A stretch of 26,857 nucleotides of DNA from a virus, in IMG/VR virus record IMGVR_UViG_3300025128_000264, positions 1 through 26,857 of that record. One strand, written 5' to 3'. Made by a program: the position numbers and the translations under genes. The notes under the pieces were generated by a model that did no database searches, was not told the DNA's origin, and saw only the letters and a list, made by a program, of their open reading frames with translations. Below, in pieces: positions 2,627 to 23,526 of this stretch. Position 1 is the first letter of the stretch. Every line of letters starts with the position of its first letter.

Positions 2627-3088
2627 CTATGCCGCTATTTTAACCCAATCTGGTGTTTGTGAATCATCAATAGAAATAAAATTCGGTGTTTGTGACTCAT
2701 CAATAGAACTCCAAACTAGAGCATTATTAACTTTTCCTTCTGCTGAAACACCTGTGACAGTAAAAGAGAAATTTATTTGTGTGCTTCCAATCGCACTTGT
2801 TGCTGAAACTCCACTCGGTGAAAGAATAGAATTAGTAACAATAGTAGAAGATCCAATTGCACTTGTTGCTGAAACTCCACTCGGTGTGACGGTAACAGGA
2901 ACAATAACAGTAGAAGATCCAATTGCACTTGTTGCTGAAACACCTGTGACACTTACAGTAACAGGAAGACTTACAGCAGCAGATCCTATAGCACTGGAGG
3001 CTGAAACACCTGTGACAGCAAGAGGGATAGGGCTGTTCCAAGCCCCTTCGTTCCAAGATCCTCTATTCCAACCAGTAAGAGACGACAT
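2627..3088 (-). CDS. Repeat-containing virion protein (22-residue TGVSATSAIGS repeats)
   Basis: A 153-residue protein in three parts. The N-terminus is Trp-rich (GWNRGSWNEGAWN). The middle (about 25-117) is four 22-residue repeats plus a half copy, each with a core like TGVSATSAIGSS followed by a hydrophobic beta-type run such as TVIVPVTV. The C-terminus carries two short repeats, SIDESQTPNF and SIDDSQTPDW. The repeat unit is visible in the DNA as 66-bp near-identical blocks between about 2775 and 3015. Start and stop overlap or abut the neighbouring structural genes (1-base sharing at 3088), so translation is probably coupled. I infer a fibre or tail-decoration role. I see no catalytic motif, and repeat number may vary between relatives. 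Confidence 0.7.
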   Translation of the reverse strand: MSSLTGWNRGSWNEGAWNSPIPLAVTGVSASSAIGSAAVSLPVTVSVTGVSATSAIGSSTVIVPVTVTPSGVSATSAIGSSTIVTNSILSPSGVSATSAIGSTQINFSFTVTGVSAEGKVNNALVWSSIDESQTPNFISIDDSQTPDWVKIAA

Positions 3089-6420: not shown

Positions 6421-6969
6421 CTATGCAACCTGAACGTATTCAATAATAAACGTAAAGGAGCCAGCAGTTGTAGCGTCTACCGTGTTTGTAATATTACAAA
6501 AGATAGTTCTTTCCGCTGATGTGTACTGAACAGAAGCGGGTGCCGTAGTTGCATCTTGTGTTTGTAAAACAAGATCCGTAGTTGTCACGTTACCTACTAC
6601 AACTGTGGTTCCGCCATCTAATATCTCATCTGTCTGTGCCGCAACAATTTGAGCACCAGAACTAGAAGTTCCAACTTCGTAGCCAATATCACCAGTTCCA
6701 ATAACAGGAGCTGTGACACAGAATATTTTAATGTCAGTAATAATTGTATTTGCAGGTTGTGTAAACTCACCAATGTTATCACTGTCACCAGCCGTGGTGT
6801 TAACAGTAACACCAGTAGCAAAACCTACATGCTTAATAAATTTGTTTGTTACAATTCCTGTAGAAGCTATGTCACAGGTTGTAGTCACGGCACCTGTGCC
6901 AGATGCAACGTTAATTACTTCAAAACCGTTTTCAGAACGGACGGGACCGTTAAAAGTTGTGTTAGCCAT
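6421..6969 (-). CDS. Virion structural protein downstream of the capsid gene
   Basis: A 182-residue Thr/Val/Ala-rich protein opening MANTTFNGPVRSENGFEVI. This opening and the following beta-rich body (CDIASTGIVTNKFIKHVGFATGV in two parts, then TIITDIKIFCVTAPVIGTGDIGYEVG) are familiar from structural proteins in marine phage genomes next to the major capsid gene. The C-terminus SFTFIIEYVQVA is strongly beta. It has an AAGGAGG ribosome site about 9 bases before ATG, and that site overlaps the 3' arm of a hairpin at 6982-7014, so its translation could depend on RNA folding. It may be a head or tail surface protein; the role is unproven. Confidence 0.72.
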   Translation of the reverse strand: MANTTFNGPVRSENGFEVINVASGTGAVTTTCDIASTGIVTNKFIKHVGFATGVTVNTTAGDSDNIGEFTQPANTIITDIKIFCVTAPVIGTGDIGYEVGTSSSGAQIVAAQTDEILDGGTTVVVGNVTTTDLVLQTQDATTAPASVQYTSAERTIFCNITNTVDATTAGSFTFIIEYVQVA

Positions 6970-6981
6970 TATGGCATCCTC

Positions 6982-7080
6982 CTTACGAGAGATTTACCCT
7001 AGAGTCTTCGTAAGCGTCTGCTGGGACAGTCGCTAGGGCTATGTTTCCCAGAAATTTGGGAGGAGGTTACCCTCCTCCCA
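6982..7080 (-). ncRNA. Candidate structured mRNA leader: three hairpins, two with complementary loops
   Basis: Transcribed leftward, the segment between the capsid gene and the next gene can form three hairpins. First, 7057-7080 has a perfect 10-bp stem with a GUAA (GNRA-type) tetraloop. Second, 7021-7026 pairs with 7046-7051 (CTGGGA/TCCCAG, 19-base loop). Third, 6982-6988 pairs with 7008-7014 (CTTACGA/TCGTAAG, 19-base loop). The loop of the third contains CTAGGG and that of the second CCCTAG, so the two loops could kiss over 6 bp (6997-7002 with 7033-7038). The last arm overlaps the AAGGAGG site of the downstream gene. The pairings are read directly; an RNA function is inference. Confidence 0.4.
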
Positions 7081-7091
7081 GAACCCCAAGC

Positions 7092-8000
7092 TTACGCTCC
7101 GGGAGAACCAAAGATACCGCGTGGGTCAGAGAACCCGAACGCATAGCGCTCACGAGCTTTGTACCGCACGTTACCTGTGTCAAAGTCACCTTCCATAGAA
7201 GTACGAACAGCGGTTCGGTTGAAACCTTTCAAGCCGTTTGGAGCGTCCGTAAGAATAAAGAAAGCATCCGTATCTGTAAGGAAATGATTAACGGCGTAGC
7301 CTTCAGGAAGCATTCCCATGTTCCTAATAGCGTTTACGTCGTTGTCTGCACTTCCAGGTCTCAAGGTAGACTCAAGAAGACGGTCCGCTGTAAATTGAAG
7401 TTCTTTTGGAACTATCAATTTAGTGCCGCGGACAGCAACTTTAAGACCACGCTCGTCTACAAAACCAGCAATATCAATAAGACTTTGCTCTAAGCTAGTC
7501 TCATTAAGGTCTGCGGCTGTAGAAAGCTCATTACGGAAAGTGCTGCCATTAACAAGAGGATGGTCTGTAGCACAAAGCTCTTTCCCATCTCCTCCAGCAA
7601 CAGTGCTGTCAAAAGCATTGTTAAGAACCGCAGCGGCTTTAACCTGCTTTGTTTGGCTCATGCTTCGAGCAAGAGCTCTTGTGTAGCGGCTGGCAAGACG
7701 ATCATAAAGATTATCTTCAATAGCCTCTTCCGTAATAGAGAAAGCCAATGCAATGGTTTCCATTGTATAACGAGCAGTATAAGCTTCCTGCGCGTCATCA
7801 AAAGATACGGCACTGCCTTCACCTTTAATCGGTGCTGCTCCAAAACCACTGAGCATCACTTCTTCTTCAAAAGCACGATCTGAAGTCTCCATTGTAAAGA
7901 TTTCCTCGTGCTCACGATCATATTGATCGTACTCCATTCCGAACAATGCGTTCAGGCCGGGTTCCAACTCTTTTACGAGTTGTGCTCTACTAATAGCCAT
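7092..8000 (-). CDS. Major capsid protein
   Basis: A 302-residue protein whose pattern fits the Mu gpT-like group of HK97-fold major capsid proteins. The N-terminus (AQLVKELEPGLNALFGMEYD and EHEEIFTMETSDRAFEEEV) has the helix and early strand typical of this group. The middle has YTARYTMETIALAFSITEEAIEDN and a helix RLASRYTRALARSMSQTKQV, then a loop GKELCATDHPLVNGSTFRN and LKVAVRGTKLIVPKELQFTA. The C-terminus has FFILTDAPNGLKGFNRTAVR and VRYKARERYAFGFSDPRGIF. Length is in the usual range. A scaffold gene and co-chaperonin gene lie upstream, as expected for a capsid operon. No N-terminal cleaved delta domain is evident; a separate scaffold is present. Confidence 0.88.
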   Translation of the reverse strand: MAISRAQLVKELEPGLNALFGMEYDQYDREHEEIFTMETSDRAFEEEVMLSGFGAAPIKGEGSAVSFDDAQEAYTARYTMETIALAFSITEEAIEDNLYDRLASRYTRALARSMSQTKQVKAAAVLNNAFDSTVAGGDGKELCATDHPLVNGSTFRNELSTAADLNETSLEQSLIDIAGFVDERGLKVAVRGTKLIVPKELQFTADRLLESTLRPGSADNDVNAIRNMGMLPEGYAVNHFLTDTDAFFILTDAPNGLKGFNRTAVRTSMEGDFDTGNVRYKARERYAFGFSDPRGIFGSPGA

Positions 8001-12055: not shown

Positions 12056-12319
12056 TTAACGTCTAACAGAACCGCCGCGAGCCATACCTTTCTTTTTCAT
12101 CATGCCGCCGCGAGCCATACCCTTCTTTTTCATCATGCCGCCGCCTCTTTTTTTAACAACACCGCCGCGAGCCATACCCTTCTTTTTCATCATGCCGCCG
12201 CCTCTTTTTTTAACAACACCGCCGCGAGCCATACCTTTCTTTTTCATCATGCCGCCGCCTCTTTTTTTAACAACACCGCCGCGAGCCATACCTTTCTTTT
12301 TCATTGTAGGTTTCTTCAT
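12056..12319 (-). CDS. Repetitive Lys/Arg/Gly-rich protein (19-residue repeats)
   Basis: An 87-residue protein made of 19-residue repeats (KKKGMARGGVVKKRGGGMM) in about three full copies plus partial ones, with an RGGSVRR end. It has no acidic residues. The 57-bp DNA repeats run from about 12070 to 12300 and are nearly identical. The repeats match the 'MARGG' and 'GGGMM' motifs found in several marine phage small proteins, including here the 134-residue protein ending GGGIMSLRGY. A role in binding DNA, RNA or membranes is possible. Repeat number probably changes by slippage. No catalytic function is apparent. The opposite strand has an open frame of similar length, which is an artefact of the repeats. 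Confidence 0.62.
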   Translation of the reverse strand: MKKPTMKKKGMARGGVVKKRGGGMMKKKGMARGGVVKKRGGGMMKKKGMARGGVVKKRGGGMMKKKGMARGGMMKKKGMARGGSVRR

Positions 12320-23144: not shown

Positions 23145-23413
23145 GGCTAATCTTAGTAAACGATTTTATGCAAAAAACCAAGTGATATGGGAATAAATGT
23201 AACAAAAATATACCCGTTAACCCATATCATTTTTTCGGTGATTATTTGTGCGAAACAAGGCCGAAGCCGCCGCTACTCTAGGTCGTCGCGGAAATTTTGA
23301 AAAAATGGCGGTTTTCTGCGGTTTCTGGTGCTGAATCGGGCAGCGGGACCCTTGGACCATGACACGCGGACCATGCACCAACAAACGCGGACCATGCACC
23401 ATGCACCATGCAC

Positions 23414-23453
23414 CAGCTAAGACCACCAGCTAAGACCACCAGCTAAGACCATC
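23414..23453. repeat. Tandem 13-bp repeat AGCTAAGACCACC, about three copies
   Basis: Three consecutive copies of AGCTAAGACC with a CACC/ATC continuation follow a run of CACCATG heptamers (from about 23392). The copies are nearly identical. They belong to the GC-rich region before terminase and could bind a small terminase or replication protein; that is a guess from position. Confidence 0.75.
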
Positions 23454-23526
23454 GAGCAGGCAGGCAGGCAGGCGGGCGGCGGACCAGCAGGCGGGCGGCA
23501 GGCAGCAGGCAGCAATAAACCAGCCT

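Follow-up and report, generated by a model that had tools for sequence, protein, structure and literature searches.

The gene that follows the major capsid gene of this marine phage is preceded by a double-pseudoknotted mRNA element, encoded on the minus strand at positions 6982-7051 of the 26,857-nucleotide stretch analysed here (the window) and reaching into the downstream ribosome-binding site. Comparison with relatives identifies it as a genuine and widespread pseudoknotted phage RNA, and establishes its fold, its invariant core, its position and its tie to the downstream gene. We consider it rather likely that the element acts in cis to control translation of that gene.

The upstream gene (7092-8000, minus strand) encodes a gpT-like major capsid protein, with matches to phrog_371 (1.2e-26), PF25209 (4e-14) and the Mu-like gpT family PF10124 (7e-9). 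The downstream gene (6421-6969, minus strand) encodes a protein of 182 amino acids that is probably a head cement or decoration protein, judging from synteny and from its counterpart in phage DSL-LC04, which is annotated as a cement protein. Searches of PDB and Pfam gave no match for this protein, and its predicted structure has a pLDDT of 33. Its N-terminus, MANTTFNGPVRS, is common to otherwise different downstream proteins: those of all classes described below, which differ in length (about 150-260 aa), have in common the motif [ST]-x-F-x-G-P-[VIL]-x-S, also found in the form T-x-F-x-G-P-V-R-S, while the body of the protein differs between phages. Such a conserved terminus is possibly an arm that binds the capsid and can be joined to different bodies. 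A small recurring gene with an N-terminus like MKKFLVNIWAYDYHGKFEVEAEDNP..IVDKLGE is found between the capsid and cement genes in many HTVC027P-like phages (loci L275, L276, L313, L317, L320, L323, L326 and L344-L352).

Read on the minus strand from 7051 to 6978, the RNA runs CUGGGA-AACAUAGCCCUAGCGACUG-UCCCAG-CAGACG-CUUACGA-AGACUCUAGGGUAAAUCUC-UCGUAAG-GAGG, with its helical arms in the order A-B-A'-C-B'-C'. The primary helix is the loop-loop helix B, in which GCCCUAGCG (7031-7039), whose last base is the G of a first GAC element, pairs with CUCUAGGGU (6996-7004), as attested by covariation. Inward it continues beyond a C.U mismatch as far as the G7031-C7004 pair, which is invariant, and it surrounds a short stem P, whose 5' arm CUG (7027-7029) and 3' arm CAG (7018-7020), placed by the covariation alignment, enclose the A' loop. 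Two more GAC elements are invariant in the 82 diverse sequences compared below: the second (7016-7018) leaves A7017 and C7016 unpaired, and the third (7004-7006) provides C7004 as the partner of G7031.

The fold is better described as this central hairpin, B plus CUG/CAG, engaged in two pseudoknots. The apical loop UCCCAG (7021-7026) pairs with the upstream CUGGGA (7046-7051) to form helix A; the 3' strand of the internal loop between the second and third GAC, CUUACGA (7008-7014), pairs with UCGUAAG in the 3' flank (6982-6988) to form helix C. Both pairings are observed in the window and were submitted to a permutation test across loci. The last arm overlaps by three nucleotides the Shine-Dalgarno sequence AAGGAGG (6978-6984), as read from the sequence. 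The topology is the kissing-loop scheme of the first-pass annotation, whose two stems (6 and 7 bp), complementary hexamers (CCCTAG at 7033-7038 with CTAGGG at 6997-7002, in the minus-strand reading) and stem arm lying over the downstream AAGGAGG are all present. Standard folding of the window RNA predicts B; A and C together are not predicted, because pseudoknots lie outside its model. We discarded the idea that the GA steps form a kink-turn, since such a motif would be interrupted by the strand that joins the second GAC to the third.

Taken from a single sequence, the pattern is suggestive and not decisive. The same annotation had called the order A-B-A'-C-B'-C' with equal loop sizes unusual. 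When the 95-nt region was put through 1000 dinucleotide shuffles, some such arrangement, with helices of at least 5 bp, arose 482 times, while the observed score was reached only in 3 shuffles; by itself, the pattern is only slightly out of the ordinary. That six- and seven-base matches and some interleaved arrangement come so easily is all that speaks for chance pairings, an explanation whose probability we regard as negligible, for it is refuted by covariation in all three helices.

What makes the element decisively real is the comparative evidence. In a sample of 82 diverse sequences, with B aligned by the flanking GAC anchors, 91.9% of cells are paired in helix B and 93.9% in B and stem P combined. 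B and stem P reach a covariation score of 0.770, whereas shuffling the partners gives 0.173 and sliding them gives 0.066-0.154. Stem P is paired in 100% of cells, and its middle pair undergoes two-sided changes 12 times on the capsid tree. Helix B shows 113 two-sided changes on the capsid-protein tree versus 4-7 for slid pairings; recombination between the RNA and the capsid gene can inflate such counts, an effect to which the slid control is exposed too.

Since the A and C arms slide relative to the core, a column-by-column count for these helices on a MAFFT alignment was set aside, and an alignment-free permutation test, comparing cognate arms with arms swapped between loci, was used in its place. 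Each distinct arm entered the test once (47 for A, 73 for B and 45 for C), and relatedness was ignored; cognate arms beat swapped ones in 5000 of 5000 permutations for each of the three helices. The 82 sequences contain 34 distinct versions of A (among them CUGGG/CCCAG, CUAGG/CCUAG, CCGGG/CCCGG, CUCAG/CUGAG and CUGAA/UUCAG), 64 of B (GCCCUAG/CUAGGGC, UGACUUUAUAG/CUAUAGAGUCG, AAUUUUGUAG/CUACAAAAUU) and 40 of C (CUUACGA/UCGUAAG, GUAUAG/CUAUAC, ACAUGC/GCAUGU, UUGCAC/GUGCAA). Ten residues are invariant throughout, namely the three GA(C) elements and their closing pairs; the G33-C60 pair, joining the G of the first GAC to the C of the third, occurs in 82 of 82. Conservation and covariation of the arms in related phages, on which the earlier proposal had staked itself, are thus strong in all three helices.

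A covariance model built on B and the stem recovers the window RNA, which belongs to its training set, with an E-value of 4e-18. It also finds untrained loci of class 3 (E from 2.6e-10 to 3.8e-6), as well as three of class 4 (E from 2e-5 to 7e-4), HTVC027P itself reaching only 0.016, and its matches on loci of the RF03012 type are not significant. By these sequence comparisons, the window RNA belongs to an A-B-A'-C-B'-C' class that comprises the window, HTVC023P and freshwater subtypes together with classes 3 and 4.

Relatives were gathered by searches with the capsid protein, the downstream protein, three divergent capsid proteins and the core pattern, yielding over 500 IMG/VR loci. The same arrangement occurs in the isolates HTVC023P, HTVC027P and DSL-LC04, in phage 023Pt_psg01 and in the freshwater record ct7L0027; the RNA is present in phages of SAR11, in freshwater phages and in other aquatic ones. 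Nearly all pattern copies (161/166) come after a gene for a gpT-like capsid protein; the remaining five start at most 92 nt from a contig end. Scans of GTDB genomes gave 0 copies with the window pattern and a single one with a freshwater pattern, again at a capsid-cement junction. The element is absent from some related phages whose capsid genes are similar.

The position of the RNA follows the downstream gene. Its C' arm overlaps the Shine-Dalgarno sequence or lies within 3 nt of it in 76 of the 82 diverse sequences, which bears out the tie to the ribosome site suggested at the outset, and the distance from the core to the start codon is 40-78 nt, with a median of 60. In about 18 loci, 281-1091 nt have been inserted after the capsid gene, and there the RNA keeps its distance before the cement gene; this argues for a cis-regulator of the downstream gene and not for a 3' element of the capsid gene. 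In the window subtype the overlap with the Shine-Dalgarno sequence amounts to only 2-3 nt, so its occlusion would be partial.

A perfect 10-bp hairpin with a GUAA loop indeed follows the capsid gene (7057-7080, minus strand; an inverted repeat), but it had been counted as part of the same RNA and proves to be a separate element, its sequence being unconserved in relatives. It belongs to the setting and not to the conserved fold. In the window its region has no U-tract and scores as neither terminator nor promoter; in other subtypes, a terminator and a promoter occupy its place. Upstream of the RNA, 84 of 104 loci of the window subtype carry a perfect hairpin with a stem of 6 bp or more, the median gap between the two being 6 nt, and the GUAA hairpin is the one that the window has in this place. 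Its 3' arm, CCUCCUCCCA (7057-7066), is complementary to the Shine-Dalgarno region AGGAGGA (6977-6983), a possible alternative pairing that is probably incidental given the lack of conservation of the hairpin sequence.

The 5' boundary differs between subtypes. A -10-like hexamer ending 6-10 nt before the first arm is found in 96% of freshwater CATGC loci, 85% of HTVC023P-type loci, 59% of class 2 and 73% of class 3, compared with shuffled means of about 7%, 28%, 14% and 11%, respectively, and a T-tract usually lies upstream of it. Judging from these two motifs, a new transcript probably opens with the RNA in all four groups. The hexamer is present in 3 of 104 loci (3%) of the window subtype and in 0% of the GCAC subtype.

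The closest counterpart of the element is Mu-gpT-DE (RF03012), a family for which we know of no function, and whose original paper is reportedly that of Weinberg and colleagues in 2017. It is entered in Rfam as an sRNA. Its Rfam and ZWD versions differ (PMC7657543). The window matches no Rfam family at gathering thresholds; positions 6900-7120 have no match up to E=10, RF03012 included, and RF03012 was not matched in the phage's own IMG/VR record either. Seven other window-type loci likewise gave no RF03012 match at E up to 1, and we therefore do not claim membership. At the same junction, RF03012 does match L147 (68.5 bits) and Roseobacter phage CRP-901 (L278; 72.3 bits), above its gathering threshold of 49 bits.

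Mu-gpT-DE, like the window RNA, follows a gpT-like capsid gene and ends at the Shine-Dalgarno sequence of the next gene. Both share a core of GAC, hairpin, GAC and GAC, closed by helix B with an innermost G-C pair; the RF03012 consensus, CCUGACAG..CUGACA..CGACAGG, contains the three GAC elements. Moreover, Mu-gpT-DE is found before cement genes 84-92% identical to that of the window. It differs in being a nested hairpin with a self-paired apical stem, where the window has a CUG/CAG stem whose loop pairs upstream; it has no A or C helices, and its Shine-Dalgarno sequence lies in B'. It also carries a conserved UAGCCA strand in the place of CUUACGA. Among the features of RF03012, the window RNA thus has the location and the three-GAC/B-helix core, and lacks the score and the nested UAGCCA hairpin.

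Class 3 loci are intermediate: they share helices A and B with the window but carry AAGCCAAGAC, the AGCCA strand of RF03012, in place of C. The RF03012 model gave no match on the one class 3 locus it was run against, so the homology of the classes rests on their shared core, place and gene. On core and location, the best reading is that the window-type RNA is a sister class of Mu-gpT-DE, and common descent of the nested and knotted classes is likely. All 79 loci whose cement gene is at least 84% identical to that of the window carry one of three architectures, none being without an element: 31 are of the window class, 33 of the Mu-gpT-DE type (of which L109, L113 and L156 were assigned by eye from rows left unclassified by the script) and 15 of class 3, assignments made by sequence pattern, with RF03012 run on some of the loci. 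It would thus seem that one class can stand in for another in function.

We now propose a mechanism for the element. The three GA(C) elements of the central hairpin, B plus CUG/CAG, surround a junction, and helix C, which terminates within the Shine-Dalgarno sequence or immediately upstream of it, may alter ribosome access as C' opens and closes. The GAC core could be read by a trans-acting partner, most simply a virion protein (cement or capsid), since diverse aquatic phages have the RNA at this gene pair and nowhere else, while their downstream proteins vary in body; alternatively, kinetic folding might tune synthesis of the downstream protein. In either case, its synthesis would be tuned to that of the capsid protein, and we infer that the RNA sets the ratio between the two. 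Of all readings, control of the downstream gene at the level of translation has the best support, yet it is unproven: in the literature searched, with few subscription papers in reach, we found no experiment on this RNA.

Placement at the 5' end in many other subtypes fits a role in mRNA stability or in transcription as well. Lying at the beginning of the cement mRNA or close to it, a compact pseudoknot could act simply as a 5'-end stabiliser, blocking decay and raising expression without any ligand or switching, in keeping with the -10-like hexamer and T-tract that would place the RNA at the head of a new transcript in the CATGC, HTVC023P-type, class 2 and class 3 loci. We find this unlikely, because the window and GCAC subtypes (3% and 0%) have no such promoter, and because the tight link of C' to the Shine-Dalgarno sequence and the invariant junction residues exceed what a stabiliser needs. 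Much less probable still is put-like antitermination, in which the RNA would modify RNA polymerase for the late operon downstream: the RNA does often come just after a terminator and promoter, heading the remaining structural genes, but neither the conserved distance to the start codon nor an arm adjacent to the Shine-Dalgarno sequence is required for that. Between these two in likelihood, and improbable in our view, is a small-metabolite aptamer, a true riboswitch sensing the state of the host late in infection. The double pseudoknot, the invariant unpaired residues and the 3' helix close to the Shine-Dalgarno sequence would resemble translational riboswitches; however, the pattern copies and GTDB scans show the RNA at a single junction between phage structural genes, with none at metabolic genes, and no Rfam riboswitch matches it.

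Keeping capsid and cement proteins in balance is a real problem for a phage, as equal copy numbers can be needed: phage GP4 has 540 copies of its cement protein and 540 of its capsid protein (PMC9698820). Our analysis links Mu-gpT-DE and a larger, pseudoknotted sister class to a single gene, the next after that for the capsid protein, and to the ribosome site of this gene, so that their function can be tested directly. Nested, single-knot and double-knot folds interchange before nearly identical genes, and so provide a natural series for the evolution of RNA architecture. As a broader and tentative idea, which we hold with somewhat less than even confidence, a broad and as yet uncatalogued superfamily of pseudoknotted phage RNAs, with Mu-gpT-DE as its simplest form, may read a virion protein through the three GACs and keep cement in step with capsid, nested and knotted architectures having replaced one another before nearly the same gene.

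Repeats mark three other places in the window. In the gap that separates the terminase gene from the next one, a GC-rich stretch unlike its surroundings (23391-23512) contains short tandem repeats of 7, 13 and 19 nt (ATGGTGC, GTCTTAGCTGGTG and similar). On the minus strand, an open reading frame at 12056-12319 consists of 3.5 nearly identical 57-nt repeats and encodes a Lys/Gly/Arg-rich protein (MKKKGMARGGVVKKRGGG), and another at 2627-3088 has 66-nt tandem repeats coding for GVSATSAIGS-like units.

Pseudoknotted translational riboswitches are known in SAM-II, preQ1-II and glutamine-II. Like the window RNA, they have a pseudoknot with the Shine-Dalgarno sequence in or beside the 3' helix; the window RNA differs from them in its two interlocked pseudoknots, its core, its phage structural-gene context and the absence of an Rfam match. 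Phages also regulate their own translation through RNA structure, as with the pseudoknot of T4 gene 32 mRNA and the coat-replicase operator of RNA phages. The window RNA is not recognisably related to these in sequence or fold, again with no Rfam match, but the principle proposed for it would be the same: a virion or other phage protein acting on a structured ribosome-binding region.
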